Source: Croceicoccus mobilis (GTDB taxonomy: Bacteria > Pseudomonadota > Alphaproteobacteria > Sphingomonadales > Sphingomonadaceae). Taken from it: 64,000 nt of DNA. Shown in pieces: positions 36,212 through 55,234 of this stretch. Both the position numbers and the translations under genes were made by a program. The notes beneath the pieces are model-generated. The model worked only from the letters and a program-made list of their open reading frames with translations, had not been told where the DNA came from and did no database searches. Position 1 is the stretch's first letter, and each line of letters opens with the position of its first letter. The stretch is from the NCBI RefSeq assembly GCF_001661965.1, contig NZ_LYWZ01000022.1, positions 620,001 through 684,000 of the forward strand, written 5' to 3'.

Positions 36212-37528
36212 ATGGCTCAGAGCGCTAACCCTGCCTTTGCCCAACGCCGCGCCCTGCCGGCCCGAAAGGCCGGAGCCGAGCGCAGCAGTGCATTGGCCGT
36301 CAATGGCATCGTCTGGGTTTTCTTCCTCGCGCTGATACTCACCAATCTGGTGTTCCCCAAGGGTGGTACGTTCATCTACGGCCTGCCCATCACCTGGGGC
36401 TATCTCGCCATCTGCGCGGCCGCTCCACTGGGGCTCATCGGCCTCGTGCGGCGTTCCGACATATCGCTGGCACCGCTGGTCCAGGCACTATGCTTCTTTC
36501 TGCCGATCGCGCTGCTGATCTTCTACAAGGCCAAGATGTATTCGCTGCCGGGCAGCGAGTGGCTGCCGCTTGCCGTGCTGTTCGGCGTTTTCCCGGTCGC
36601 GATCCTGGGCATCATGACGCCCTATCTCGAACAGATAAGGGCGCAGGATATCGCCCGGGCCGTCAGGCTTGGCATTCGCTTTCTGCTGATCTGGGGGCTG
36701 ATGAATTTCGTCCTCTTCATCATCGCGCGCAAATTCATCGAGATCCCCTATATCACGGTGAACGGCCAGGAAGTCGGGATGACGCTGGGCAAGAACAATC
36801 TGCGCGGCTCTCTCATGAAATTCGTGTCGACGTATAATAACGGCAATATCTTCGGGACCTGCATGGTGATGCTTGCCCCGATCTATTTTCACTTCGAAAA
36901 AAAGAAGCTCTGGCTGGGCCTCTTCATCGTTGCCGTGCTCTGCACTCTCAGCCGCTCGGCTTGGTTCGGGCTGGCCGCGACCCTGATGCTGATGGGCATC
37001 ATGGGGCAGATCCGGATCAACCGGCTCAGGGTCTGGCTGCTCGCCGGCTTTGCCTTCTGCATCCTCATTGCCGTGCTGCCCCTGCTGGGCTGGTCGGGGC
37101 TGGACGATGTGTTCGACACCCAGCTTGGCGGACGGATCCGTTACCTGGTCAAACTCGAATTGAACTTTACCGGTGCCGAGCAGATCGCGATTCCCGAAAT
37201 CCTGTATTTCGGCCTGCTTTACAGCTTCGGCATGATCGGCTTTCTCATCGCCATGGGCGGATTCCTCTATGGCATCTTCTATGGTGCGATGCGCTGGACC
37301 ATCCTTTCGCCGATGCGGCGTGCGGCGGTCCTTGGTGCGGTCGGCTATCTCATCATGGCGGCCATGGATGGCGCATTCCTGTTTCCGCCGGTTTTCCCGC
37401 TATTCCTCTTCGTGAACGCGCTCATCTATCGCCGCGGCCTCAGGGAAACGACCGCTGGCCTCGCGCGAAATGCGTCCTCGGTGGCTCGGATGCGCCGTCG
37501 CCCGCCATCCCCGGCATATCCGGCATGA
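36212..37528 (+). CDS. O-antigen polymerase/ligase-like membrane protein
   Basis: 438 residues with about ten to twelve hydrophobic segments and one larger periplasmic loop in the second half, the general shape of Wzy/WaaL proteins. No strict motif exists for the family. Position next to the Wzc-like gene (five bases) and before a glycosyltransferase points to Wzy polymerase. Its stop overlaps the next gene (ATGA). A second protein of this class lies at 44009. Confidence 0.8.
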   Translation: MAQSANPAFAQRRALPARKAGAERSSALAVNGIVWVFFLALILTNLVFPKGGTFIYGLPITWGYLAICAAAPLGLIGLVRRSDISLAPLVQALCFFLPIALLIFYKAKMYSLPGSEWLPLAVLFGVFPVAILGIMTPYLEQIRAQDIARAVRLGIRFLLIWGLMNFVLFIIARKFIEIPYITVNGQEVGMTLGKNNLRGSLMKFVSTYNNGNIFGTCMVMLAPIYFHFEKKKLWLGLFIVAVLCTLSRSAWFGLAATLMLMGIMGQIRINRLRVWLLAGFAFCILIAVLPLLGWSGLDDVFDTQLGGRIRYLVKLELNFTGAEQIAIPEILYFGLLYSFGMIGFLIAMGGFLYGIFYGAMRWTILSPMRRAAVLGAVGYLIMAAMDGAFLFPPVFPLFLFVNALIYRRGLRETTAGLARNASSVARMRRRPPSPAYPA

Positions 37529-38664
37529 GCGAGGCCGGCCCCGAAAACTACCGCGTGCTGCATGTCGCGCAGAAGCTGCCGGGCGGGGTCGGCGCCTATC
37601 TGTCCGAAGTGCTCGCCTTTCAGCGCGAGGTGCTGGGCCCGCGCCGCGTTTCGGCGGTCATCCCGGCAGAGGAGCGCTACGTCCTTCCCTATCTTCCCGA
37701 TGCCTCGCTCCACCTGTTCGAAAATGCCAATCGCTCGCCCCGCGCGCTGCTGCGCTTTGCAGCCCATGCGCGTCAGGCGATCCTGACCGACCGGCCCGAT
37801 ATCGTGCACCTTCATTCCAGCTTTGCCGGCATGCTGCGCCCCGTGATCTCCCGCCTGCCGGAAGAGGTGCGGCCCGCGGTCGTCTATTGCGCGCATGGGT
37901 GGGCCTTCAACATTCGCTGGTCGAACCGCAGGCGCGACATGATCGCGGCGGTCGAACGCCATTTGTCGACCATGACCGACCGGGTCGTGTGCATTTCGCA
38001 ATATGAACATGACAGCGCGATCGAACGCGGCATGCCGGCCCATAACATGACCGTGCTGCACAATGGCGTGACAGAGCGGGTCTTCCCCGGCTCCAGCGCG
38101 CCGGTGCCGATGCCGCGCGACCGGATCAACCTGCTCTTCATCGGGCGCAAGGACCGGCAGAAGGGGCTGGATATCGCGGAAAAAGCGATGTCGATGCTGA
38201 CGGGCCTGCCGATCCACCTGCATGTCATCGGCGCCAGCGTGATCGGCGAAGGGCACCGTGAAACCCGTCTGCCCAATATCACCCATTACGGCTGGCAAAA
38301 GCGCGAGGCGATCTGGGGCTTTGTCGAGGCGTGCGATGCCGTGCTCATCCCCTCGCGCTGGGAAGGTTTCGGCCTTGCCGCGATCGAGGCGTTGCGGCAG
38401 GCGAAGCCCGTCATCGCTTCGGCTGTCGACGCGCTGCCCGAAGTCGTGCTGGATCGCCAGACCGGCATGCTGTTCCCGCCCGAAAATCCGCAGGCGCTTG
38501 CCGACATGCTGCGACAGCTGGACCGGCAGAGGCTTGCCGAGATGGGGCAGGCAGGGCGCAATGATTTCCTCGCCCGCTTTACCGGCGAACGCATGAATCG
38601 CGCGATTCTCGATTGCTATCGCGAAGTGCTCTACGAACGGGCGCTGGCATCGCGCGCGGCCTGA
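37525..38664 (+). CDS. GT4-family glycosyltransferase
   Basis: 379 residues, GT-B fold. N-terminal LHVAQKLPGGVGAYLSEVL, the mid-region VCISQYEHDSAIERGM and HNGVTERVF, and the C-terminal donor motif CDAVLIPSRWEGFGLAAIEAL, whose E-x7-E binds a nucleotide sugar. The cytoplasmic enzyme would add one sugar to the lipid-linked repeat unit. Donor and acceptor cannot be read from sequence. The ATG overlaps the polymerase stop codon by four bases. Confidence 0.93.
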   Translation: MSEAGPENYRVLHVAQKLPGGVGAYLSEVLAFQREVLGPRRVSAVIPAEERYVLPYLPDASLHLFENANRSPRALLRFAAHARQAILTDRPDIVHLHSSFAGMLRPVISRLPEEVRPAVVYCAHGWAFNIRWSNRRRDMIAAVERHLSTMTDRVVCISQYEHDSAIERGMPAHNMTVLHNGVTERVFPGSSAPVPMPRDRINLLFIGRKDRQKGLDIAEKAMSMLTGLPIHLHVIGASVIGEGHRETRLPNITHYGWQKREAIWGFVEACDAVLIPSRWEGFGLAAIEALRQAKPVIASAVDALPEVVLDRQTGMLFPPENPQALADMLRQLDRQRLAEMGQAGRNDFLARFTGERMNRAILDCYREVLYERALASRAA

Positions 38665-38674
38665 AGGACGATTG

Positions 38675-39859
38675 ATGGAAGTACTCGCGATCATCCCCGC
38701 ACGCGGCGGATCGAAGGGCATCCCGCGCAAGAACGTGAAGGCGCTGGGCGGAAAGCCCCTGATTGCGCACACGATCCTGGCGGCGCTGGCGGCACGGCGC
38801 GTCGGGCGTGTGGTGGTATCGACCGACGATGCCGAAATCGCCCATGTCGCGCGCGAAGCCGGGGCAGAGGTGGTAATGCGTCCCGATGATCTGGCGGGCG
38901 ATGTCGCCCGGTCGGAAGACGCGCTGCTGCATGTGATGGATGTGCTGGCAGAAGATGGCTACCGGCCCGATGCGATCGCGTTCCTCCAATGCACCTCGCC
39001 GCTGACCGCGCCTGAAGATATCGACGGCACGCTGGCCGCGCTGGACGAACAGGGCGCGGACACGGCGCTGGCCGTGGTGCCTTTCCACTATTTCCTGTGG
39101 CACGCCGATGCCGATGGCGCGGCAAACGGCATCAACCATGACAAGAGCTTTCGCCTGATGCGCCAGCAGAGGGAGCCGGAATTCGTCGAAACCGGCGCGG
39201 TCTATGCGATGCGCGCCGAGGGTTTTCGCGAGGCGAAGTTTCGCTTTTTCGGCAAGACCGTCATGCACGAGATCCCCGTCGAGCACTGGCACGAGATCGA
39301 CGACCCCGCCGATTTCCGCATCGCCGAGGAGCGCATGGCCCGGCTCGCCCGGTCGCAGCCCGCCCATGCCGCCCTGCCCGAAACCGTCGCCGCGCTGGTG
39401 ATGGATTTCGACGGGGTACTGACCGACGACCGCGTCTTCGTGTCGGCCGAAGGAGTCGAGAGCGTCGCCTGTTCGCGCGGCGATGGCATGGGGATCGAAC
39501 TGCTGAGGAAGGCAGGGCTGGCCATGTGCGTCATTTCCAAGGAGCAGAACAAGGTCGTCGCCACGCGCTGCGAAAAGCTGAAGCTGGAATGCGCGCATGG
39601 CATCGACGACAAGCTGCCATTGTTCCTCAAATGGCTGGAGGAGCGCGGCATTGATCCCGCACACGCGCTCTATATCGGGAACGACATCAACGACCTGCCC
39701 TGCATGGAAGCGGCGGGCTGCGCCGTGGCCCCTGCCGATGCGCATCCAGCCGCACGCTCCGCCGCCGATCTCGTGCTCGAAGCCGAAGGCGGGCGCGGCG
39801 CGATCCGTGAACTGGCGGACCTGCTGATCGCATCGGGCCGCATCGCGCCGCTCGGCTGA
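38675..39859 (+). CDS. CMP-nonulosonate (sialate-type) synthetase fused to KdsC-like HAD phosphatase
   Basis: 394 residues in two domains. Residues 1-228 are a NeuA-type cytidylyltransferase: IIPARGGSKGIPRKNVK binds CTP, AIAFLQCTSPLTAPEDI and FVETGAVYAM follow. Residues 240-394 are a HAD phosphatase of the KdsC/YrbI group with every motif intact: DFDGVLTD (244-251), CVISKEQ, GIDDKLPLF and YIGNDINDLP. A working phosphatase domain suggests the pathway passes through a 9-phosphate (or Kdo-8-phosphate-like) intermediate. TTG at 38672 is an alternative start. Clustered with a GT-B transferase and, 6 kb on, a NeuB-like synthase. Confidence 0.88.
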   Translation: MEVLAIIPARGGSKGIPRKNVKALGGKPLIAHTILAALAARRVGRVVVSTDDAEIAHVAREAGAEVVMRPDDLAGDVARSEDALLHVMDVLAEDGYRPDAIAFLQCTSPLTAPEDIDGTLAALDEQGADTALAVVPFHYFLWHADADGAANGINHDKSFRLMRQQREPEFVETGAVYAMRAEGFREAKFRFFGKTVMHEIPVEHWHEIDDPADFRIAEERMARLARSQPAHAALPETVAALVMDFDGVLTDDRVFVSAEGVESVACSRGDGMGIELLRKAGLAMCVISKEQNKVVATRCEKLKLECAHGIDDKLPLFLKWLEERGIDPAHALYIGNDINDLPCMEAAGCAVAPADAHPAARSAADLVLEAEGGRGAIRELADLLIASGRIAPLG

Positions 39860-39869
39860 TCCGGCGCCC

Positions 39870-40820
39870 ATGACGATCATCGCCGCCCTTCCCCGCTCTA
39901 GCCTGCACCTCCAGCTACTGGCCGCGAATGATCCGGGCGTCACCCATGTCCTTTATCGCGACGATCATATCGCAGGGCAGGTTGAGCGGCTGTTTCCGGG
40001 CAAGGGCGTGCCGCTGGGCCGCGAACAGCGCCCGCCGCGCAATCCGCTGGCGCTGCCTGCGCGCTTTGCCGCCAATAGCCGCTATTACGCATCGGTGCGC
40101 GGCATGCTCACCCCGCTGGGGATCGAACGGCTGATCCTGTTCCTCGAAGGCGAACCCCTGGAACGCATGCTGGTGCGCTGGTTCGCAGGGCCGGTGGAGC
40201 TTTGGGAAGACGGGCTTTCGCATTACGTCGATCTCACCAGCCCGCTCTGGTATGCGGCGCGCGGGGCTGTGCAGATCGCCAGCGGCTTTTATCCGCATGG
40301 CGCGATGCGCCGCCGCGCCGACCGGTCCGCGATGATCGTGCGTGACCGGTTCGAAGCCCGCGACCTCTCGCTGCCGAAACCGAACCCCGCCCCGCCCGAG
40401 GATCGCATCCTGATCATCGGCTCTCCACTGGCGGAGGACGGCATCGTGCCGCGCGCGCGCGTAGCCGAAGGGCTGGCGAAAATCGCTGCCGCCTCGCCGG
40501 TGCCTGCCTGCTATCTACCCCACCCGCGGGAGGATGCGTCGGCACTTACCGCGATGATCGGCCCCATCGACGGGCTGGAGATCGCCGCTCAGCCGCATGG
40601 CATCGCCCCGCATGTCGAAGCGCATGGCTATGCCGGTTTTCTCGCCGCCGCCTCGACCGCGCTCCTCGACCTTGGCCAGTTCGACCGCAGCCTGTTCGTG
40701 CCGCGCCTGTTCGGGCTGGAGCGCATGCATCGCGCGCTATCGGGCTGGCAGGCGAACCCGGTGCCGGTCGTTCACGGCATGTCCGGACTTGAACAAAGGC
40801 TCGCCGCGATAAAACCTTAG
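39870..40820 (+). CDS. Putative sialyltransferase-like GT-B glycosyltransferase (A)
   Basis: 316 residues, starting ten bases after the CMP-sugar synthetase. Weak overall similarity to bacterial polysialyl/sialyltransferase families (GT38/GT52-like). Three motifs shared by those families can be read in order: EDG at 113-115 (LWEDGLSHYVDL, general base), HP at 218-219 (CYLPHPRED, CMP binding) and S-T at 262-263 (FLAAASTALLDL). It likely uses the CMP-sugar made by its neighbour; linkage and acceptor unknown. Its last four bases overlap a convergent gene. Confidence 0.68.
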   Translation: MTIIAALPRSSLHLQLLAANDPGVTHVLYRDDHIAGQVERLFPGKGVPLGREQRPPRNPLALPARFAANSRYYASVRGMLTPLGIERLILFLEGEPLERMLVRWFAGPVELWEDGLSHYVDLTSPLWYAARGAVQIASGFYPHGAMRRRADRSAMIVRDRFEARDLSLPKPNPAPPEDRILIIGSPLAEDGIVPRARVAEGLAKIAAASPVPACYLPHPREDASALTAMIGPIDGLEIAAQPHGIAPHVEAHGYAGFLAAASTALLDLGQFDRSLFVPRLFGLERMHRALSGWQANPVPVVHGMSGLEQRLAAIKP

Positions 40821-42079
40821 GGTAACGCCGCGATAAGCCGCTGTGCCACTTGCGAGGAACCGTCAGAGGCGATCATCCCGATCTCGTCGTGCAACAGGCC
40901 TTCAGGCGCGGGGACGACGCCGATCTCCAGCCCCTGTTCCAGATAGCGGGCCAATATCGCCGCATCGTCCGATGCCGGTATGCCAAGCGCGACCAGCTGC
41001 TCGACCTTCTCCGCTTCCGCCGCCTCGCGAAAGCTGTCGCGCCCGATAAGGCTTGCCGCAACCGGGATCGAACAGACCATCGCTTCAAGCAGGGCGGACG
41101 AATAGAAACCCACGGCGGCATCGCAGGCGAGCAAATCGTCGTACAGGGGGCCAAGGCCATCCGCCACTGTCAGCCCATGATCGGCAAGCAATTGCGCCAG
41201 CCGCATACGCTCCTGCGGCGAGGCGCGCGGATGGATACGCGGCACGACCGCGATTTCATGCCGCGTGGCACAGATCGAGAGTGCTTGCGCCAGAACCCGT
41301 TCGGATTGCTCGACCGCATCCTTCTCGACCTTGCCGTCCAGTCCGAAAGGCTGGTGCAGCCAGAGGATGCGCCTTGGCCCCTGTCGATGTTCGCGCTCCC
41401 GCCATTGTTGCGCGGTCACCGCCAGCGCGTCGAAACGCGGCGGCGGAACCGGTATAAGCTTGTCTTTCGGAATGCCGAGCGCGGCCAGCCGTTCCACCCG
41501 GCCCGGCGCGGTGCACAGGACGAAATCGACCGATTTGCCGCCAAGATCGCGCCTTGGCAGCAGTTTGAGCGCCCGCAATCCGGCAAATAATATGCGATTG
41601 GCGAGGCGTGAGCTTTCCAGCGCCTTTTCCCCCGGCAGCGGCAGGCTGAACGGTCCCTCGTCGATAAGGAAAACGGGAATGCCCCGGCTGTGAGCGGCAT
41701 TGGCCAGTGCCTGCTCGGGATAGCCCCAGAGATGACAGAGCATGAGGACGCCGATATTCTTGTCATCGAGTATCTTGCCGAAATGCCGCTGCATCCGGGC
41801 GAACGCGCGCATGCCCCCCGATATGACGATATTGGGCGCTGCCGTCGTGAACCTCGATCTCAACCCGACATCGTCCGGTTCGACATGCTCGACAGGTGAC
41901 AGCTTCGCGTAATCGGCACTGCCGCGCCGATCGAATGCGGACAGGTCGAAAATGAAGCGCATCACTTCCAATTCCCCGAGCGCGCGATCGATGGCGGTGA
42001 TGAGCGCCGGATGCGACCCGCTCGCCCCGGCCAGGGCAATTACGCCCCTTCCATCCGCATTATCCAAGAGGTTCTGCAT
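40817..42079 (-). CDS. Putative sialyltransferase-like GT-B glycosyltransferase (B)
   Basis: 420 residues from the ATG at 42079; the frame stays open to 42160 but the added part is basic and unconserved. Not obviously homologous to protein A over its length, yet the same motif set appears: DEG at 140-142 (FLIDEGPFSL), HP at 283-284 (VVPRIHPRAS) and SS at 327-328 (VGFYSSALLEAM). A second CMP-nonulosonate transferase, or a capsule-type transferase of the same fold, is the best guess. It is transcribed opposite to the first and alone on its strand. Confidence 0.6.
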   Translation of the reverse strand: MQNLLDNADGRGVIALAGASGSHPALITAIDRALGELEVMRFIFDLSAFDRRGSADYAKLSPVEHVEPDDVGLRSRFTTAAPNIVISGGMRAFARMQRHFGKILDDKNIGVLMLCHLWGYPEQALANAAHSRGIPVFLIDEGPFSLPLPGEKALESSRLANRILFAGLRALKLLPRRDLGGKSVDFVLCTAPGRVERLAALGIPKDKLIPVPPPRFDALAVTAQQWREREHRQGPRRILWLHQPFGLDGKVEKDAVEQSERVLAQALSICATRHEIAVVPRIHPRASPQERMRLAQLLADHGLTVADGLGPLYDDLLACDAAVGFYSSALLEAMVCSIPVAASLIGRDSFREAAEAEKVEQLVALGIPASDDAAILARYLEQGLEIGVVPAPEGLLHDEIGMIASDGSSQVAQRLIAALP

Positions 42080-42119
42080 CAAATTTCCAACTCGTGTCGC
42101 CGCACGATGGGCGTTTTTC

Positions 42120-42160
42120 GGCTTACGGGGGTTGCGCCGTTCGTAAAGGTCCGTAAGCAA
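42120..42160. repeat. Inverted repeat in a divergent intergenic region
   Basis: GCTTACGG (42120-42127) and CCGTAAGC (42153-42160) form an 8-base perfect inverted repeat with 25 bases between. TTACG-like cores recur at about 42143 (CGTAAAGG) and 42171 (TTTACGCG). The region separates transferase B (reverse) from a small membrane ORF (forward), so an operator is possible. Confidence 0.35.
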
Positions 42161-42206
42161 AGCCGTGATTTACGCGAAACGTGAATAGCACGAGGCAAAG
42201 ACATAA

Positions 42207-42356
42207 ATGTCGCAAGAATTTCTGATCGGAGGCGCCCTGCTGCTGGTCCCGATCGTGATCCTGGCTGTTTTCGAGCTCCATGTCGCAAGGAAACGCAGGA
42301 TCGCGCGTGACACGGCGCGGCGCAGTAAAGCCCGTTCGCCAAGCGACGCCGCCTGA
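42207..42356 (+). CDS. Small single-pass membrane protein
   Basis: 49 residues: MSQEFLIGG, a hydrophobic segment (ALLLVPIVILAVFELHV, about residues 10-26) and a strongly basic cytoplasmic tail (ARKRRIARDTARRSKARS). GAGG lies about 11 bases before the ATG. Positive-inside orientation is clean, which supports a real product. Function unknown; it precedes another small membrane protein in the polysaccharide locus. Confidence 0.45.
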   Translation: MSQEFLIGGALLLVPIVILAVFELHVARKRRIARDTARRSKARSPSDAA

Positions 42357-42420
42357 TCGCGCGCGATGGCCAGAGCTGGCCGATTGATGGCATCGTGCTG
42401 AAAGCCGGGCGCGGCCCGCT

Positions 42421-42786
42421 ATGATCGAAACGGCTGTCGCTTTCTGGGAAAACCTCAAACAGGAATATATCCCGCCGGGCGAAGACCTGCGCGCGCTTAT
42501 TCACATCCATGTCGGACTGGCCCTGTGGCTCTTGGCAACATTGCTATTTCGCCGGGGCCCGGCATCCGTGCTGCCGCTCGCGATCGTATGGGCCGCGACC
42601 TTGCTGACAGAGGCTGCCGATCTCTATCACTTCTGGCCGATCCAATATGACTGGGTCTGGTACGATACCGCCGGGGACCTTTTCAACACGCTGTTCTGGC
42701 CGACCATGCTCTGGCTGTATTTCAGCTTTCGCAAAGCCCGCCGGGACAGGGAAAACGATCACGCTTCAGCCGGTTCGGAGAGTTAA
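42421..42786 (+). CDS. Hypothetical three-segment membrane protein
   Basis: 121 residues, family not recognised. Hydrophobic stretches at about 29-43, 50-68 and 84-103, with an aromatic loop between the last two (DLYHFWPIQYDWVWYDTAGD) and a charged tail. The layout resembles small VanZ-like or DUF membrane proteins but no signature confirms this. It ends four bases into the end of the convergent TPR gene. Confidence 0.6.
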   Translation: MIETAVAFWENLKQEYIPPGEDLRALIHIHVGLALWLLATLLFRRGPASVLPLAIVWAATLLTEAADLYHFWPIQYDWVWYDTAGDLFNTLFWPTMLWLYFSFRKARRDRENDHASAGSES

Positions 42787-44012
42787 CGCGGCGTGATCGC
42801 GATGTCATCGGCATAGCCGCGGCTATCGGTCACGAAGACGGATGAGCCGAAGCGCACGTCGAGAAACTGGACATCGCAATCTGCAGGTATCGTGAATTCG
42901 CCCGCAGCGATTTCGCGTTCGCTGTCACGTTTCAGCTCAGCGATCGCATTATCCGTCCCAGCGCAGGTGAGCCTGATCTGCGGCATGGCCTTGTCGGCCT
43001 GCTTGTTGGCCCAAAGCCTTGCCGACAGGGCATATTGCCCCTCACCCAGCGCCATGACCTGCCGCGCGACCTGACCGAGATGGCCGCTCCCCGCACGCAT
43101 TTCGAGAACGCGTCCCTTGCCGTCTTCCGCCGGCATCGGCATCGCCGATAAGGACGCACCCGATTGATAGCTCCAGCCAAGGGCCGCCACGTTCTTGTCC
43201 TCGAAATCGCCATTGCGAACGAGGGTACGCCCCGCGCCCTTGTCACCCCCGGCATCGAGCGCGTGAATAAGCTGCGCCGCTTCGGCGTTGGCCCCCAGCT
43301 TCAGGAGCTGGTTGACGACAGTGCCCGCGCTGGCGCGATCCTTAGTGGGTACGCCTTTGCCCCACAGGCCCTCGGCCCATGCCGAAAGACTGGCCTTATC
43401 CTCGTTGCGCACTACGAACAGCGGCATGAGCCGGGTTCGCCACTCCGGCCCCCTGGCCATGGCCTGCCCCAATTCGCGCGCAACTTCGGGGTCTGCCGCA
43501 GCATCGATGAGCTGGCTTACCACAAGGTCATAGCTGCGGCCGGTGGTGGCAAGGGCATGGCCGTAATGCCGGATCATCTCCTCGCCATTGCCGATGCGCT
43601 TCGCCTCCATGGCAAGGGCGAGTTCGGTCATCAGATCGCGGCGCGACAGGTTCTCACCATAGCGCAGCAGCCGCATGGCGCCTTCCCCGTCGCCGCGATA
43701 CGCCTTTACAAAGGAAAGCGAGCGGATCGCGCTCACTTCCAGCGGATCGTCCAAAATCGCTTCTCTGGCGAGCGTTTCGACCCTGTCGAGGGTCTGGGGC
43801 GACTGATCGGCCTGAAAAGCCAGCGCTGCCGCGGAAGATCGGGCCGGCGGGCTTGATGCGATCGGCGTGTCGGCAAGCTTCGCCCGCATCTTGGCTGGCA
43901 GCACATTGGGCAAGGTCAGCAGGGTGACCGGCACGCTCAGCCCGATTGCGGCGATGACAAGCACGCCGCCGGCAATCCAGCGCGTGCGATTGGGAATCGT
44001 CCTCTTCGTCAT
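42783..44012 (-). CDS. Membrane-anchored helical-repeat protein with CBM-like C-terminal domain
   Basis: 409 residues. One N-terminal membrane segment (about 12-36). Residues about 65-250 are helical and read like degenerate TPR units (Ala/Leu-rich with periodic Tyr and Gly). Residues about 265-409 look like a jelly-roll carbohydrate-binding module: it opens with RNGDFEDKNVAALGWSYQSG and ends SRGYADDIAITPR, the pattern of CBM4/9-like domains. A periplasmic scaffold or polymer-binding role in EPS assembly is inferred. Its start overlaps the stop of the ligase-like gene upstream (ATGA). Confidence 0.65.
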   Translation of the reverse strand: MTKRTIPNRTRWIAGGVLVIAAIGLSVPVTLLTLPNVLPAKMRAKLADTPIASSPPARSSAAALAFQADQSPQTLDRVETLAREAILDDPLEVSAIRSLSFVKAYRGDGEGAMRLLRYGENLSRRDLMTELALAMEAKRIGNGEEMIRHYGHALATTGRSYDLVVSQLIDAAADPEVARELGQAMARGPEWRTRLMPLFVVRNEDKASLSAWAEGLWGKGVPTKDRASAGTVVNQLLKLGANAEAAQLIHALDAGGDKGAGRTLVRNGDFEDKNVAALGWSYQSGASLSAMPMPAEDGKGRVLEMRAGSGHLGQVARQVMALGEGQYALSARLWANKQADKAMPQIRLTCAGTDNAIAELKRDSEREIAAGEFTIPADCDVQFLDVRFGSSVFVTDSRGYADDIAITPR

Positions 44013-45523
44013 CGACTCTTCTCCGTCGATGATCGGTGGGATGGCATCGGGCGCGACATCAGATAGGTCGCGAACACCAGAACCGCACCGGCAAGCGGCG
44101 TGCGCAGCGGATAATCGGTCAGGCTGGCAAGCATCAGCGATCCGGCCATGATCGCACCCGCACGGGTCGAGATCGTCTCACCGCTGGGCACGTTCTTCCA
44201 GCTGCGCCAGATGCGCCATCCAATCCATCCGACAAAACCCAGCAGGACCAGCAGCGCCGGGATGCCTCCCGTGAGGACCAGCTCGATGAGGTCGTTATGG
44301 GCATTGTTGAAATATTTCCGCGAAAGGCCCCAATCGGGCTCATAGCTGCGGAAGACCGGATCGAACGATCCGAAGCCCGATCCGAAAGGCAGGAAATCGC
44401 GAATGATGTCGAGCAGGACCGGCAGGAAAGTCAGGCGCTTTTCCGCAAGCAGGTCGTCACCGACAAAGCGATCGATCGACAGCGCCTTGCCGAACAGAAC
44501 GAGGAGAGCGACAACCAGCGTCGGCACCGCGATCACCAGGATGCGCAGCCATTTGGCGTGGGATTTGCGCATGCCTGCGCCCAGTTCCTCAAGCGGGGAC
44601 ATGGCAAGCGATGCCGCCAGCGAAGCGAAGCCGACCACGATCCCCGTTCGCGATCCGGTCACCACGATCATCACCAGCAGCACCAGCGCGCTGACCATGG
44701 CGATCAGGCGGCGACGCGAGGAAGGCAGCTTGCTCTTGCCATGCGCCAGCGACCACATCCGCAACACCGGAAAGCCCGTGGCCAGCACGGCTGCGGCATG
44801 GTTGCGATTGGCGAAAAAGCCCACCACCGAATCCTCGGCAAAGAAACGATAGGGGAGCGGGGGGCCGTCGATGACCCCTCCCACCTGAAACACGCCAAGC
44901 ACCAGCGAGATCGCGAGGAAGGCGAGAAAACCGTATATGACCCGCGGTTCCTGCCGATACGAAATTCCGCGCAGGGACATGAGCAGGGCAATGGCGGGAA
45001 GCAGTGTCAAAAGACTGTTCCACGTCCGCCAGGGGGTCAGCGAAATGGGACGCCATGGCTGATCGAGCCCGGCGGCAAGCGCCGCTTCGGCATAGCGTTC
45101 ATGTCCGGGCAGCGACGTCCAGATCGATGGCGGAAGCGGCACGAGCTGGACCGCGATGGCAAGCGCCAGCAAGGCCAGCAACAATGTCGGCGCCCGCATC
45201 TGGCGAGCAGGTGCGGTGATCGGCAGGACCAGAAGGACCCCAATCGCGATCATGCACAGCGGGCGCAGGAAGAGAAGAAGATTGACGTCGAGCCGCGCCG
45301 AGCCTCCGAACAGGGCTATTGCGGCAAAGACAAGGCCCAGCATGACGAGGCGCGCATTATCCGCCGTCGGCATCCATCTGCGCGGCCCGCCGCGCCGGCC
45401 ACCGCTCTTTGACGGACCGCGCCGCCTTGAACCGCCGTGTCGTCCGGACATTGCGTCGGACTGCGACCGGCCGGTCGGATCGTAAACTCTACCCGATGAT
45501 GACATGACTGGTCGCGGTCTCAT
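44009..45523 (-). CDS. O-antigen ligase-family (Wzy/WaaL-like) membrane protein
   Basis: About 504 residues, twelve or so hydrophobic segments after a basic, Gly/Arg/Ser-rich N-terminus of about 50 residues. The Wzy_C-type region has FFANRNHAAAVLATGFPVL, VVTGSRTGIVVGFASL and, in the periplasmic loop, NNAHNDLIELVLTGGIPALL; the N-H-x-D / A-H-N motif is typical of O-antigen ligase domain proteins. The start is uncertain: TTG 45565, ATG 45523, 45505 or 45451. Coupled to the TPR/CBM gene by a four-base overlap. Confidence 0.82.
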   Translation of the reverse strand: MRPRPVMSSSGRVYDPTGRSQSDAMSGRHGGSRRRGPSKSGGRRGGPRRWMPTADNARLVMLGLVFAAIALFGGSARLDVNLLLFLRPLCMIAIGVLLVLPITAPARQMRAPTLLLALLALAIAVQLVPLPPSIWTSLPGHERYAEAALAAGLDQPWRPISLTPWRTWNSLLTLLPAIALLMSLRGISYRQEPRVIYGFLAFLAISLVLGVFQVGGVIDGPPLPYRFFAEDSVVGFFANRNHAAAVLATGFPVLRMWSLAHGKSKLPSSRRRLIAMVSALVLLVMIVVTGSRTGIVVGFASLAASLAMSPLEELGAGMRKSHAKWLRILVIAVPTLVVALLVLFGKALSIDRFVGDDLLAEKRLTFLPVLLDIIRDFLPFGSGFGSFDPVFRSYEPDWGLSRKYFNNAHNDLIELVLTGGIPALLVLLGFVGWIGWRIWRSWKNVPSGETISTRAGAIMAGSLMLASLTDYPLRTPLAGAVLVFATYLMSRPMPSHRSSTEKSR

Positions 45524-45784
45524 CCCAATGGCTGCTGCAGTCGCCGGATCAAGCCGGGCGATCAAGGCCTTTCAACAGCCTGAGGCGGATGGCTAAGATG
45601 CATGGAACCTGTTTGCAAGGGGTGCGGTCCGCCGTTCACAGGGTGCCCCTGCTCGGACCGTCGCATTGAAGCCATAGTCCCCCGCAAGCTTTCCACGCGA
45701 GGGACAGTGGCGGTTGTGCAGAGGGCCCAAGCGGTGATATCCACGCGGCTAATTTATCAAATCCGCTTTTTTCGGAGCATTTTC
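45524..45784. promoter_or_regulatory. Divergent intergenic region before the NeuB-like gene
   Basis: About 260 bases between the reverse-strand ligase operon and the forward NeuB-like operon; both promoters must lie here. The 45 bases before the NeuB-like ATG are AT-rich (GCTAATTTATC at about 45748) in contrast to the neighbourhood. GGAG at about 45774 is a good ribosome-binding site. No exact -35/-10 pair was found. Confidence 0.4.
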
Positions 45785-46669
45785 ATGGGTGTAAAGATAA
45801 TCGCCGAGGTTGGCTGCAACCACAAGGGCGATATGGAGATTGCGAAGGAACATATTCGCGTGGCCGCCGTCTATGCGAAGGCCGACGTGGTGAAGTTCCA
45901 GAAGCGCAACAACCGCGAGCTGCTGACCGAAGAGCAGTATAACGCGCCCCATCCCAATCCGCGCAACTCCTATGGCGAAACCTATGGCGAGCATCGCGAA
46001 TTCCTCGAATTTTCGCTCGAGCAGCACCGCGAGCTGATGGCCGAATGCGAAAAGAACGGGATCGAATATTCGACGTCGGTATGGGACACGAGCTCGGCGC
46101 GCGACATGGCGACGCTGAAGCCAAAGCTGCTCAAGGTTCCCTCGGCATGCAATCTGCATTTCGACATGCTGGAAGTGCTGGCCAAGGACTATGACGGCGA
46201 GATCCATCTTTCGCTCGGCATGACCACGCATGAAGAGGAAGAGAAGATCGTCTCCTTCTTCGAAGAGCATGGCCGGGCCAAGGATCTCGTCATCTATTCG
46301 TGCACCTCGGGCTATCCGGTCGAATTCCAGGATATCTGCCTTGGCGAAATCACCCGGCTCAAGAACGCGTTCGAGGGTCGGGTCAAGGCGATCGCCTTTT
46401 CCGGCCATCACCTTGGCATCGCGGCCGATGTCGCGGCGCTGACGCTGGGCGCGACCTGGGTCGAGCGTCACTTCACGCTGGACCGCACCTGGAAGGGCAC
46501 CGACCATGCCGCCTCGCTCGAACCCGATGGGCTTCGCCGCCTGTGCCGCGACCTGCGCAATGTCGAAAAGGCACTGGGCTGCAAGGGCGAGGAAATCCTG
46601 CCCGTCGAGAAGGTCCAGCGCGAAAAGCTGAAATGGCGACCCCGCCCCAAGCCCGCCGCTGCCGCCTGA
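45785..46669 (+). CDS. NeuB-family nonulosonate synthase lacking the SAF domain
   Basis: 294 residues, TIM-barrel enzyme condensing a hexose(-phosphate) or N-acylated sugar with phosphoenolpyruvate. It starts KIIAEVGCNHKGDMEIAKEH, has VVKFQKRNN, LKVPSACNLHFDML and HLSLGMTT. The metal ligands of NeuB are present with the same 21-residue spacing as in the meningococcal enzyme: His208 (FSGHHLGIAADV) and His229 (WVERHFTLDRTWKGTDHAAS). The C-terminal SAF/antifreeze-like domain of Neu5Ac synthases is missing; the chain ends in a Pro/Ala tail. The ATG at 45785 follows GGAG by eight bases. Confidence 0.85.
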   Translation: MGVKIIAEVGCNHKGDMEIAKEHIRVAAVYAKADVVKFQKRNNRELLTEEQYNAPHPNPRNSYGETYGEHREFLEFSLEQHRELMAECEKNGIEYSTSVWDTSSARDMATLKPKLLKVPSACNLHFDMLEVLAKDYDGEIHLSLGMTTHEEEEKIVSFFEEHGRAKDLVIYSCTSGYPVEFQDICLGEITRLKNAFEGRVKAIAFSGHHLGIAADVAALTLGATWVERHFTLDRTWKGTDHAASLEPDGLRRLCRDLRNVEKALGCKGEEILPVEKVQREKLKWRPRPKPAAAA

Positions 46670-46705: not shown

Positions 46706-47563
46706 ATGGATCGTGCGCAAATCAGACAGGACATCGTCGAGCAGGGCTTTTGCGTCCTGCCGCGATTCCTGACGACCGACGAAGTCGAACGGCTACGCCT
46801 GACACTCGCCCGCTTCTTTGAGAGAAACGGGCGGATCTATAATCTTGGCAAATCGCAGCCCAATGCAGCAATGGTCTGCCCCGATATCGGTTTCCTGATC
46901 TCTTCGCCAAAGGTGGTGGAGGCTTTTCGCGCCGCGACCGGCGACGACAATCCCGTCTTCACCGGGCACTGCGACATCCATCAGGACATGATCAGCGACT
47001 GGCACAAGGATACCGGCCACGGTCATGGCTATTTCGCCGAAGACTGTTTCACCGATGGCTGCAACGTGATCAAGATGGGGGTCTATCTGCAGGATCATGT
47101 CGACGGTAACGGACTATCCGTCGTGCCCGGCTCGCACCTCGCAGACGATCTCGGCAATGACAATGCAGTCGCGATCCCCTCGCAGGCCGGCGATGTCATC
47201 CTGTTCGACGTGCGCATCACCCACCGCGGCAGGCCCGGCGACGGGGTGGAGAAATCGCTGCAGAAGGCCAGCCGCATCGGCGCGCGCATCGGCAAGTCGC
47301 TTCCCGCTGCATTACGGCCCTCGGGCGAGCCCGCCTCGATCCTTGCGCTGAAGACCGGCTATGACCGGCTGCGCGGGATCGCCTCGCGCCATTCGGTGTT
47401 TTTCACCTTTGGCGCGGATAACCGCTTTACCGCGCAATTTGCCGAGCGGAATATGGCGCGCCAGCAGCGGCAGTGGGCAGACCGTTCCAACGCCTATCCC
47501 GGCACGCTGCGCCCCGATCTGGAAGGACAGGGCGTGCATGTCTATCCAAGACAGATCGACTGA
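46706..47563 (+). CDS. Phytanoyl-CoA dioxygenase (PhyH) family protein
   Basis: 285 residues of the Fe(II)/2-oxoglutarate oxygenase class. Iron ligands can be placed: His100 and Asp102 in DWHKDTGHGHG and His173 in RITHRGRPGD, with an Arg shortly after for 2-oxoglutarate. The mid-region GVYLQDHVDGNGLSVVPGSH is typical of PhyH. In this locus a hydroxylation of a sugar or lipid precursor is inferred. TTG at 46703 is an alternative start. It lies 36 bases after the NeuB-like gene. Confidence 0.85.
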   Translation: MDRAQIRQDIVEQGFCVLPRFLTTDEVERLRLTLARFFERNGRIYNLGKSQPNAAMVCPDIGFLISSPKVVEAFRAATGDDNPVFTGHCDIHQDMISDWHKDTGHGHGYFAEDCFTDGCNVIKMGVYLQDHVDGNGLSVVPGSHLADDLGNDNAVAIPSQAGDVILFDVRITHRGRPGDGVEKSLQKASRIGARIGKSLPAALRPSGEPASILALKTGYDRLRGIASRHSVFFTFGADNRFTAQFAERNMARQQRQWADRSNAYPGTLRPDLEGQGVHVYPRQID

Positions 47564-49490
47564 CCGAACGCTCTTGAAGATGCGCCAGATGGACATGAGC
47601 CCAGACATTCCAATGAATCCCGAAAATGCCAATCCACGACCGAGTCCCGTTGCGTTCTCTGCCAAGCCCCTGGGCGGGCAGGGTCAGAACGGGCAGGCTC
47701 ATAGCCCTCAGACGGTCAAGCGCGCGCAACTCTCGGCCGTCTGGCGGTTCGAAGCGCTGAGCGAGCTTTTGGGTGAGCGGGCCTTCAAACCGGGCAAGGC
47801 AATCGAGTTCGACCCCGTGCTCGCGACACCGCTCCCATTGCTGAGCGGTCTGGGCTGGGATGTCGGGTTTTCAGGCGGCATGGCGGATGTGAATGCCGCC
47901 ATCGCCGAAACCTATCGGACAGGCGGCGCGCAAGGCGACGCAGCGGCAAAGCCCGACCTGCTGCTGTCGCAGGACCTGCCGCCGGTCGTTCCCAGCGAAG
48001 AGGAACTGGCGCGCCTGTCGGACATGCTCGCTTCCGATGGCATGCTGGTGCTGACGGTCCGTCCGGGTACCTCGGGCATGGCGATGTCGCAAATGGCGCG
48101 ATATGTTAAGGTCACCTCCCGGCGGCTGAAAGCGGCAGGCTTTGCCGCCGTGAAACAGCATCTGTTCGCCAAGGAATGCTGGATCGCGGCCTATAAGGTC
48201 GCGCCCGGTTCCATGCGCGGTCGGAGCATCGGGCGTGGCGAACTCGCCCTGTGGTCAGGCGCAGGCGCACTGCGCTCCATGCCGGAAAGGTTGCTGTCGG
48301 GCGCATGGCAGACCCGCAGCACACGACATGGAACGCCGCTGGCCGGGCACCGTCTCGCCAATGCGCGCAAGGCTGCACGCCTGCGCCGCAAGGCGGTGAT
48401 TGCGAAACATTCGCTGGTTCATTTCGGCGTGCATGCGCCCGATAACGCGGGCGATCTCGTCCTGTTCGAAACCGTGCGCCAGTGCATCGACGGTTCGCCT
48501 TCGAGCGACTGGGTGCTGCGCGACGTTCGCGCGCCGGTGACCTCCGATACGATAGAAGAGATCAACCGATCGCGCGGCATGGTCATCGGCGGCGGCGGGC
48601 TGTTTCTCGTGGATCTCGATTCCAGTTCGAAATCGGGCTGGCAGTGGCCTTGCCCGATTGAATCGCTAAGAGAGATCGAAGTCCCCATCATCGTCTTCGC
48701 GGTGGGCTATAACCGGTTTCGCGGGCAGGGCGAATTTCCGCAGGCCTTTGTCGATAGCCTGAAGCTGCTGGTGGAAAAGGCGGCATTTGTCGGCATCCGC
48801 AATCATGGCAGTATCGCGGCACTCCGCTCCTATCTTCCCGAAAAGCTTGGCGCCAAGCTCCATTTCCAGCCATGCCCCACGACCGTGCTGACCGAACTGG
48901 GCGCGGCGCCTGCGCGGCGCGAAACCGGCGATGGCCGCAAACGGCTTGTAATCAATGCAGCCTTCGACCGCTTTGGCAACCGGCTGCAGGGGCAATATGA
49001 AAATGCGCTGGGCGGGATCGCCTCGCTTGCGGCCCACGCCAAGGCGAATGGATGGGAAATCATTGCCTCGTGCCATTCCTATGACGACGAGGCGATCGTG
49101 CCGTTTCTGAAGCGCGCAGGCGTCGAGGCGAGCGTCAGGCATTTTGCATCCTCGCCCACCAGCGAAATCCTCGATTTCTATGCTGGCGTCGATCTGGTCG
49201 CGGGCATGCGTGGGCACGCGCAAATGATCCCCTTCGGTCTCGGAACGCCGATCCTCTCGCTTATCGCGCATGACAAGCTGGGCTGGTTTCTTGACGATAT
49301 CGGACACCGCGAATGGGGCGTTGAATTGACAGATCACGATACCGGCGAACGCCTGCGTTCGGCATTCGATGCCATTGCGGGCGACCTGACCGCAACGCGC
49401 GCAGCGATTGCAGCGGCGCGGCAGGTCCTGTGGGACCAGACATGCCTTAACCGGACCATCGTGCAATCCGCATTGTCGCTAGAGGGATGA
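47538..49490 (+). CDS. Polysaccharide pyruvyltransferase family protein with N-terminal extension
   Basis: 650 residues from the ATG at 47538, which has AAGGA ten bases upstream and overlaps the PhyH gene by 26 bases; ATGs at 47580 and 47613 are alternatives. The C-terminal 340 residues are a WcaK/CsaB-type ketal pyruvyltransferase: HFGVHAPDNAGDLVLFETVR, MVIGGGGLFLVD, and GMRGHAQMIPFGLGTPIL near the end. It would add pyruvate from PEP to a sugar. The N-terminal 200 residues resemble the end of a class I methyltransferase (LSDMLASDGMLVLTVRPG, SRRLKAAGF) without a SAM-binding glycine motif. Confidence 0.8.
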   Translation: MSIQDRSTDRTLLKMRQMDMSPDIPMNPENANPRPSPVAFSAKPLGGQGQNGQAHSPQTVKRAQLSAVWRFEALSELLGERAFKPGKAIEFDPVLATPLPLLSGLGWDVGFSGGMADVNAAIAETYRTGGAQGDAAAKPDLLLSQDLPPVVPSEEELARLSDMLASDGMLVLTVRPGTSGMAMSQMARYVKVTSRRLKAAGFAAVKQHLFAKECWIAAYKVAPGSMRGRSIGRGELALWSGAGALRSMPERLLSGAWQTRSTRHGTPLAGHRLANARKAARLRRKAVIAKHSLVHFGVHAPDNAGDLVLFETVRQCIDGSPSSDWVLRDVRAPVTSDTIEEINRSRGMVIGGGGLFLVDLDSSSKSGWQWPCPIESLREIEVPIIVFAVGYNRFRGQGEFPQAFVDSLKLLVEKAAFVGIRNHGSIAALRSYLPEKLGAKLHFQPCPTTVLTELGAAPARRETGDGRKRLVINAAFDRFGNRLQGQYENALGGIASLAAHAKANGWEIIASCHSYDDEAIVPFLKRAGVEASVRHFASSPTSEILDFYAGVDLVAGMRGHAQMIPFGLGTPILSLIAHDKLGWFLDDIGHREWGVELTDHDTGERLRSAFDAIAGDLTATRAAIAAARQVLWDQTCLNRTIVQSALSLEG

Positions 49491-49529: not shown

Positions 49530-50555
49530 ATGACTGAAGGACAAAGCGCCATGCTCACGCCGCGGCTCGACATCGCCCGATCCAACCGATCTGTCGTCAC
49601 GCTCGGCAAGGTCCAGCGCGAGGCTCTCGACGAGCTGAAGGACCGGATCGCGACCGGCGAGATGCGCTTTGTCCATCTCGACTGTCCGGTATGCGGCGGC
49701 GGTTCGCTGTCGCCAGTGGCGACCCGCGACCGATATGGCGTCGCCTGCACCACGGGCGTGTGCACCGATTGCGGATTGATGCAGACCAATCCCTATCCCG
49801 ACGCATCATCGCTCGACTGGTTTTACGCCAATATCTTCGCGCGCCTCCACCGGGGCACGACATCGCCATCCACCGCCCGGTTCGAGGGGCGCCGCGGCCT
49901 TGCGCATGAGGTGGTGGGCTGGCTGCGGCAAAACGGGGTTCCGGCATCGGGCCTTGCCGTCGATGTCGGCTGTGCCTCCGGCGGGTTCCTGCAGGGGCTG
50001 GTCGATAACGGGTACACTGGGATCGGCCTGGAAATTGACGCGGATTATGCCGCCGATGCACGCTCGCGCGGTCTCGACGTCCGGCTCTCGACCATTGCGG
50101 GCCTTGCCGAGGCGGGCGAAGCCGTGCTTGTCAGCTATGTCCAGGTGCTTGAGCACATCGTGGGCGTTAACGATGAGCTTGCCGCCCTGCGCGCGCGCCT
50201 ATCGCCCGGAGCGCTGGTGTTTATCGAAGTCCCCGGACTGACCAGCGTGCCGACGATGTATAATAAAGACGTTCTGCGGCTGCTGCAGCTTGCCCATGTC
50301 TGGCACTTCACGCCCGAAAGCCTCGGCAATCTCATGGCGAAACATGGGTTCGAGACGGTGGCGATCACACCCTATGTGCGCGGGCTTTTCCGCGTGCCGC
50401 TCGAAACGCCTGCAACTCCGCCGATGCGGATCGAGACGATTGCGCAGGTCCGGGAAAGGATCGCCCGGCTGGAACGGGCAAGACTGCTTTATTGGCGGAC
50501 CTGGGCCATTAAGGCGAAGGCGGTGTTGAAACGGGTGCTAGGCCGCAGCCACTGA
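49530..50555 (+). CDS. Class I SAM-dependent methyltransferase with N-terminal zinc-ribbon
   Basis: 341 residues. A zinc-ribbon-like motif lies at Cys52-x2-Cys55 and Cys78-x2-Cys81, as in sugar C-methyltransferases and related enzymes. The SAM domain has motif I AVDVGCASGGFLQGLVDNGY, then the acidic GIGLEIDADYAADA and VSYVQVLEHIVGVNDELA. The C-terminus is basic and helical. AGGA eight bases before the ATG at 49530 decides the start over an upstream TTG. A methyl group on a sugar of the repeat unit is the likely product. Confidence 0.87.
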   Translation: MTEGQSAMLTPRLDIARSNRSVVTLGKVQREALDELKDRIATGEMRFVHLDCPVCGGGSLSPVATRDRYGVACTTGVCTDCGLMQTNPYPDASSLDWFYANIFARLHRGTTSPSTARFEGRRGLAHEVVGWLRQNGVPASGLAVDVGCASGGFLQGLVDNGYTGIGLEIDADYAADARSRGLDVRLSTIAGLAEAGEAVLVSYVQVLEHIVGVNDELAALRARLSPGALVFIEVPGLTSVPTMYNKDVLRLLQLAHVWHFTPESLGNLMAKHGFETVAITPYVRGLFRVPLETPATPPMRIETIAQVRERIARLERARLLYWRTWAIKAKAVLKRVLGRSH

Positions 50556-55174: not shown

Positions 55175-55234
55175 TGCGTGCGCCCTCATGTTGCAGTGCG
55201 AAGAATGACCCTGCAGGCGATGCAGTTCAAGATT

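Follow-up and report, generated by a model that had tools for sequence, protein, structure and literature searches.

A nonulosonate module with a SAF-less NeuB-family synthase in a polysaccharide locus of Croceicoccus mobilis, predicted to make KDN

The module and its core enzymes

The window analysed here is a stretch of 64,000 nucleotides of Croceicoccus mobilis (assembly GCF_001661965.1, contig NZ_LYWZ01000022.1, positions 620,001 to 684,000 of the forward strand). A preliminary description, made from the letters of the window, had noted in it a nonulosonic (sialic-like) acid module inside an exopolysaccharide locus, and had proposed that it may make KDN (ketodeoxynononic acid) or an undescribed C9 or C8 keto-sugar. 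The four genes at the core of the module are the following (CMP, cytidine monophosphate):

38675-39859, + strand: NeuA-HAD, a NeuA/PseF-like CMP-nonulosonate cytidylyltransferase fused to a KdsC-type HAD phosphatase (Pfam and NCBIfam matches, motifs)
39870-40820, + strand: GTa, a GT-B protein, probable CMP-nonulosonate transferase (fold match, adjoins NeuA-HAD)
40817-42079, - strand: GTb, a second GT-B protein, start inferred (GT-B fold)
45785-46669, + strand: SAF-less NeuB-family synthase, probable KDN-9-phosphate synthase (PF03102, no SAF)

The profile searches bear out the two enzymes that had been read from the letters. NeuA-HAD lies in an open reading frame (ORF) at 38672-39859 whose first ATG, at 38675, gives a protein of 394 residues. 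Its N-terminal half matches CTP_transf_3 of Pfam (94.0 bits) and carries the cytidylyltransferase motif; the best NCBIfam match of this half is PseF (135.7 bits, under the cut-off of 205.7), while KdsB models reach at most 67.1 bits. The HAD motifs DFDGVLTD (residue 244), GIDDKL (309) and GNDIND (335) are intact, and residues D244, D246, K313, G335 and D337 are invariant in all 62 aligned fusion proteins, that of the window included. The nearest sequences of known structure include 3mmz (a HAD hydrolase), 9t4z (a NeuA) and 1qwj. The synthase, whose start we set at the ATG at 45785 within the open frame 45602-46669, has 294 residues and matches PF03102 with 233.1 bits; no SAF domain is matched by Pfam. 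It is under the cut-off of the NeuB_NnaB model TIGR03569 (196.9 of 399.65 bits) and far under that of the PseI model TIGR03586 (136.9 of 340.25).

A clade of SAF-less synthases with a phosphatase partner

A scan of contigs gave 183 stretches encoding a relative of the window NeuB, and the best 80 were kept as loci (L numbers). Their synthases are 65-87% identical to that of the window and come, by record title, from Alphaproteobacteria, Verrucomicrobia, Bacteroidota genera, Clostridia, bacilli, Spirochaetes, Mycolicibacterium and others; the records of the nearest relatives carry the names Croceicoccus, Novosphingobium and Croceibacterium. Identities in plasmid records are bimodal, with 10 records at 64-68% and 81 below 60%, the best of the latter reaching 37.5% among the best 40 of 91 matches listed. 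As stand-ins for BT1714 of Bacteroides thetaiotaomicron we used the synthases that neighbour phosphatases positive for NF058599, the KDN-9-phosphatase model of NCBI, in ten fetched loci (Bacteroides-type synthases); this model is over its cut-off in 18 of 247 Bacteroidales genomes.

A tree was built from 45 rows: 25 hand-chosen SAF-less synthases, the 10 Bacteroides-type ones, 7 other synthases and 3 of a further SAF-less group, called the third group below. The four groups each stand on a supported branch (100/100, 100/100, 100/99 and 100/100). The stem of the SAF-less clade is long (1.92), and the tree program warns of long branches meeting between this clade and the third group. When ten proteins were scanned for the SAF domain, it was matched in 3/3 Bacteroides-type synthases and in one NeuC-linked control, and in none of the four clade members and two third-group proteins; loss in the remainder of the clade was judged from length (median 290 residues over the 80 loci). 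As judged from tree and domains, the SAF-less NeuB proteins form a tight clade distinct from the Bacteroides-type KDN synthases, which the preliminary description had overlooked. The clade is not mentioned in the titles or abstract starts of the open-licence PMC literature searched, and its plasmid-borne members are annotated only as 'N-acetylneuraminate synthase family' or 'sialic acid synthase'.

We aligned 82 SAF-less synthases and found 98 columns conserved in at least 97% of them, among which two segments are common to the Bacteroides-type synthases. The corresponding motifs, YG.H[RK]..LE and KG[TS]D, occur in 81/81 SAF-less and 10/10 Bacteroides-type synthases. Both are lacking in all ten control synthases, which were hand-picked from the non-clade plasmid matches and four of which adjoin an annotated neuC or hydrolysing epimerase; the synthases of L101 and L111 are also without both motifs. 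Similar motifs are present in human NANS. Through their arginine and lysine, the two motifs may bind the 6-phosphate of the sugar substrate.

A NeuA-HAD homologue is encoded in the fetched stretch of 66 of the 80 loci; it has at least 350 residues in 61 of them (that of L002 is truncated by the end of the stretch) and lies within 200 bp of neuB in 50. This company of NeuA-HAD and neuB indicates a phosphorylated product. Carrying the motif pair of the Bacteroides-type KDN synthases and having a phosphatase partner, the window enzyme groups with the nonulosonate-9-phosphate synthases. When the 62 fusions were scanned at E <= 1e-35, NF058599 was matched by 46, the most of any family, followed by the YrbI/KdsC subfamily (38) and KdsC (24). 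In one locus (L100/L114) the HAD half of the fusion passes the NF058599 cut-off (183.9 of 180 bits), and the adjoining SAF-less synthase is 67% identical to that of the window.

The loss of the SAF domain also bears on the substrate. In Neisseria NeuB, Arg314 of this domain is described as positioning the N-acetyl group of N-acetylmannosamine (ManNAc), and the R314A variant as inactive (PMC6795526). Without the domain no equivalent of Arg314 can be used, which would suit a substrate that has no N-acetyl group.

Further observations concern the extent of the family. Clade members are present on plasmids of Sinorhizobium fredii and S. meliloti; a 5-O-methyl-KDN polymer is cited for S. fredii, and the strain with the analysed KDN polymer could not be tied to the clade. 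On pSymB of S. meliloti ml28 (L116 7851-14081), the capsule genes have neuB and a cytidylyltransferase gene beside them, together with genes for a DUF6716 transferase and an annotated alpha-2,3-sialyltransferase. The Spirochaetales contig CALXRC010000008 (L061, L058) has a SAF-less neuB twice, at a distance of about 13 kb. A separate second SAF-less NeuB group, with the motif WGRMTYIDY / WG[TS]D, is seen at L118 247-1152, L119 244-1125 and L101 1984-2868, and in L118 and L101 it adjoins a HAD phosphatase gene. The NeuB of an Enterobacter plasmid (L124) is extended at its N-terminus, and its motif is a third variant, REYR.

Substrate and product of the module

The pathway that we propose starts from mannose-6-phosphate. 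The SAF-less NeuB would condense it with phosphoenolpyruvate (PEP) to KDN-9-phosphate, which the HAD half of the fusion would dephosphorylate to KDN; the cytidylyltransferase half would activate KDN to CMP-KDN, and GTa, perhaps with GTb, would add KDN to a Wzx/Wzy-assembled exopolysaccharide. We are highly confident that the module makes a CMP-nonulosonate by such a 9-phosphate route. That the nonulosonate is KDN is a prediction from the genes, which we consider probable and the most likely outcome. A mannose-6-phosphate-specific KDN-9-phosphate synthase is documented in PMC6200933.

The genome of the host (4.2 Mb in 32 contigs, completeness 100, contamination 1.31) supports this reading by what it lacks. 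It encodes one PF03102 protein, so that there is a single NeuB, and its sole PF02350 protein is a non-hydrolysing WecB (329.1 bits against a cut-off of 210.15; NeuC model 60.3 against 235.9). Searched through PF02350, the genome has no hydrolysing NeuC over cut-off; a profile search finds no PseG, and NanE reaches 21.6 bits, under its cut-off of 27. The preliminary description had reported the lack of precursor genes for the window. The signature enzymes tested for N-acetylneuraminic acid (Neu5Ac), legionaminate and pseudaminate are absent genome-wide, PseB/C/H and LegB/C/H not having been searched for individually. We extended the search to 39 carrier genomes hand-chosen from the 80 loci (40 with that of the window), several of which are metagenome bins in which absences are soft. 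NeuC is over its cut-off in 0/39, weaker matches to its model occurring in 15/39 with 20.8-106.8 bits for the best places, and NanE is over its cut-off in 1/40, solely when frame neighbours are counted.

Several observations weigh against KDN. Loss of the SAF domain alone is not proof of it, since the Bacteroides-type KDN synthases keep the domain. The control synthase of L118 adjoins a HAD gene yet is without the exact motifs, which therefore do not cover every phosphatase-linked synthase, and 14/80 loci have no NeuA-HAD in their stretch although 13 of these stretches exceed 11 kb, so that the partner is usual rather than universal. The HAD half of the window fits KdsC (116.4 bits) better than NF058599 (83.0 against a cut-off of 180), and the window fusion is not among the 46 that match the latter. 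The model itself looks too broad: the locus L093/L111 has a synthase over the NeuB_NnaB cut-off (483.6 of 399.65) and, some 3 kb further on, a phosphatase that passes the model with 234.0 bits, and in L101 a phosphatase just under its cut-off (179.6 bits) lies beside a third-group synthase. We therefore rejected an NF058599 match as proof of KDN, and its lack of specificity lowers our confidence in this product. At L111 1087-5501 (Bacteroidales) the NeuB_NnaB synthase is followed by a frame resembling NeuC, and one that contains CBS is seen too (both recognised by eye).

The supply of mannose-6-phosphate, which the preliminary description had taken for granted, is a further difficulty. The host genome has no match to the phosphomannose isomerase families PF01050, PF01238 and PF20511 or to the AGE family PF07221 (kinases and bifunctional PGI/PMI enzymes were not searched for), which leaves the source of mannose-6-phosphate in this host unexplained by the families tested. 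ManA is present in other sphingomonads according to PMC5399355. Another type of isomerase or the phosphorylation of imported mannose would be possible sources; alternatively, the substrate may be another one. A side activity of phosphoglucose isomerase is also a conceivable source. Among the 40 carriers, PF20511 (type I phosphomannose isomerase) is matched in 23 and PF01050 is over its cut-off in 16; at least one of the two is found in 33, in G010 and G018 through weak PF01050 matches alone. The seven genomes without either are that of the window, the sphingomonads G001-G004, G007 and the small G035. Nothing speaks more strongly for a different substrate than this missing isomerase.

In three other loci an isomerase-like gene stands within the operon itself. 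It encodes a CBS pair and a phosphomannose-isomerase cupin (MannoseP_isomer; domains checked by Pfam in the L073 copy), follows neuB by 6, 61 and 73 bp in L042, L046 and L073, respectively, and is followed by neuA-HAD, with a pyruvyl transferase in between in L046:

L042 10858-11616: CBS pair and phosphomannose-isomerase cupin
L046 5753-6508: CBS pair and phosphomannose-isomerase cupin
L073 8160-8936: CBS pair and phosphomannose-isomerase cupin

In two further loci the isomerase-like gene is 3.1 and 3.7 kb away. From its domains this enzyme would make mannose-6-phosphate, and the CBS part suggests that the supply may be regulated. At 65-87% identity, the kept synthases are expected to share one substrate.

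The same gene arrangement can be read in other ways. One is that the synthase uses a different sugar phosphate and that the product is a nonulosonic (or other ulosonic) acid not yet described. This would fit the separate, long-stemmed clade and the absence of both phosphomannose isomerase families in the host and four sphingomonad carriers; we nevertheless think it rather unlikely, given the isomerase matches in most carriers, the isomerase gene in three operons and the motifs common to the Bacteroides-type KDN synthases. Neu5Ac by an animal-like route (ManNAc-6-phosphate and PEP to Neu5Ac-9-phosphate, dephosphorylation, CMP activation) would also be served by the motifs and the phosphatase partner, which suit either hexose-6-phosphate, and the human synthase is reported to accept both substrates (PMC7845648). 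What makes it unlikely is the lack of NeuC over cut-off in the host and the 39 carriers, the near-absence of NanE, a known ManNAc-6-phosphate enzyme, and the missing SAF arginine that would hold the N-acetyl group.

The C8 sugar that the preliminary description had left open appears very unlikely. A Kdo-type module for the polysaccharide would agree with KdsC as the best family of the HAD half, but the synthase belongs to the NeuB family and the cytidylyltransferase half resembles PseF/NeuA and not KdsB, which makes a C8 product less likely (kdsA and kdsB were not searched for in the genome). We give least credit to the idea that precursor genes elsewhere in the genome complete a legionaminate or pseudaminate pathway: PseF is indeed the NCBIfam family that the cytidylyltransferase half matches best, though under its cut-off, whereas the synthase is far under the PseI cut-off and the genome has no hydrolysing epimerase and no PseG (LegB and LegC were not searched for). 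KDN, the best supported of the products that had been proposed, is the reading that we retain.

If it is right, KDN has a dedicated, highly conserved bacterial module spread, by record title, over Verrucomicrobia, Bacteroidota genera, Clostridia, bacilli, Spirochaetes, a Mycolicibacterium and Proteobacteria. The clade would then provide a sequence signature by which KDN-type polymers could be predicted from generically labelled synthase genes, and would be a natural test of the purpose of the SAF domain; the phosphomannose isomerase missing from the sphingomonad carriers is a concrete gap that calls for an answer. A bolder and rather doubtful proposal is that the SAF-less clade is a second specialised nonulosonate-9-phosphate synthase of many phyla, with its own fused CMP-synthetase/phosphatase, which in sphingomonads, where the carriers searched lack the phosphomannose isomerases tested, would draw on a further isomerase or use another hexose-6-phosphate, the product, perhaps oxidised here by a PhyH-type enzyme, being an undescribed nonulosonic acid.

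Candidate transferases and neighbouring genes

The two glycosyltransferases had been described as GT-B proteins with sialyltransferase-like motifs. Neither matches a Pfam family at E <= 0.001, and models of both match GT-B structures; D/E-D/E-G, HP and SS/ST sites can be read in their alignments. The GTa model, built with 5 sequences, has a mean pLDDT (predicted local distance difference test) of 78.1, with low values at 116-149 (other four models, 56-60). In VIA-align its best row is the bacterial polysialyltransferase 5wcn (Z 17.3, root mean square deviation 5.3, 283 aligned residues), and the next family, NeuC 5zlr, is 3 units lower (Z 14.2). In Foldseek, run without the 'viral' library, 5wc6 and 5wcn rank second and third behind the rhamnosyltransferase SpnG with similar E-values; families not listed by the fold searches are not thereby excluded. 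The bacterial polysialyltransferase (5wcn/5wc6) is thus the nearest fold to GTa by VIA-align, from which GTa differs by its 13% identity and lack of Pfam membership. GTa adjoins NeuA-HAD in L002-L005 as well (TRANSFERASES).

The GTb model (mean pLDDT 73.5, 3 sequences) has no clear nearest family: UDP-GlcNAc 2-epimerases lead and many GT-B proteins follow, at Z 15.3-19.8. We considered GTb as a diverged NeuC/WecB and rejected this, as it is without the epimerase signatures HRRE and SGG when aligned (distantly) with the WecB of the same genome. Its homologue in L005 touches PF02350 under the cut-off (23.2 of 30.6 bits) and does not conserve the histidine of the LHQPF site of GTb. On the models, GTa would be the better candidate for a CMP-KDN transferase.

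Pfam matches confirm that the module lies within a Wzx/Wzy-type polysaccharide locus, with a Wzy_C protein, a Polysacc_synt flippase and a Bac_transf initiating transferase around it; Wza- and Wzc-like genes were recognised by eye at 33-36 kb. The other features are:

36961-38664, + strand: open frame directly upstream of NeuA-HAD, its second half a GT4-type glycosyltransferase (PF00534, 89.1 bits, residues 385-533)
42783-44012, - strand: protein without Pfam match, beside a Wzy_C gene in L002 too
44009-45565, - strand: Wzy_C / O-antigen ligase-like membrane protein, start uncertain (PF04932, 53.3 bits)
46706-47563, + strand: PhyH-type oxygenase, accessory (PF05721, 42.3 bits)
47580-49490, + strand: polysaccharide pyruvyl transferase, candidate tailoring enzyme, start inferred (PF04230, 54.4 bits)
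49530-50555, + strand: methyltransferase, candidate tailoring enzyme, start inferred (PF13489, 55.3 bits)
50560-51939, - strand: Wzx-type flippase (PF13440/PF01943, Polysacc_synt)
53777-55189, - strand: initiating sugar transferase (Bac_transf; PF02397, 224.8 bits)

Between GTb and the gene at 42783-44012, a small open frame at 42421-42786 encodes 121 membrane-like residues without a Pfam match.

The pyruvyl transferase and methyltransferase may modify KDN in the polymer. In 10 of 80 other loci a homologue of the former lies no more than 2.5 kb from neuB, and 7,9-pyruvylated KDN is a known polymer unit of Promicromonospora citrea according to PMC6801904. We also surveyed neighbours on the + strand, at most 250 bp from neuB or neuA-HAD and at most 3.5 kb from neuB (79 cluster representatives of 123 ORFs). 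This yielded methyltransferases, flippases, glycosyltransferases and pyruvyl transferases, and no kinase or NeuC family among the best 25 of 94 families listed. The PhyH oxygenase is possibly a nonulosonate-modifying enzyme, for which the Kdo hydroxylase, which oxidises Kdo, offers a parallel. A PhyH-type oxygenase directly follows a SAF-less neuB also in Mycolicibacterium L008 (10875-11762; 41% identical, 2 bp gap), in a stretch without NeuA-HAD.

Comparison with known systems

The bacterial NeuB, PseI and LegI synthases share the PF03102 barrel with the window NeuB, which differs from them in its scores under the TIGR03569 and TIGR03586 cut-offs, in having no SAF domain and in a genome without NeuC or PseG. 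The animal enzymes NANS and CMAS follow the same 9-phosphate route, and the two halves of NeuA-HAD are matched by two chains labelled as CMP-sialate enzymes, 1qwj and 3ewi, presumably halves of one mouse protein. Animal NANS keeps the SAF domain, unlike the window synthase. By its predicted activity the latter can be likened to the KDN-9-phosphate synthetase of Prymnesium parvum, for which synthesis of KDN-9-phosphate from mannose-6-phosphate only is reported (PMC6200933). The KDN capsules KL1 and KL2 of Serratia marcescens have neuA and neuB in the capsule locus, as described in PMC9000132, where KDN was measured; the KL1/KL2 NeuB carries an extra sugar-phosphate isomerase/epimerase domain (PMC9000132).

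The preliminary description had drawn its comparison with the KDN pathway of B. thetaiotaomicron (BT1713/1714/1715 type). The module is not of this type by synthase clade or by the NF058599 cut-off. The Bacteroides-type synthases have 345-350 residues and a SAF domain, stand on a separate 100/100 branch and are 33-38% identical to that of the window (33-36% in the ten loci, 37.5% in an eleventh, L092), and their phosphatase is a separate protein in the ten loci; that of the window is fused to NeuA. The module is best described as a variant of the known KDN pathway, with a synthase clade of its own. What holds of the comparison is the logic of the pathway: the same three activities are expected in both, a HAD phosphatase is present in both, and the Bacteroides-type KDN synthases and the clade of the window carry the same two motifs.

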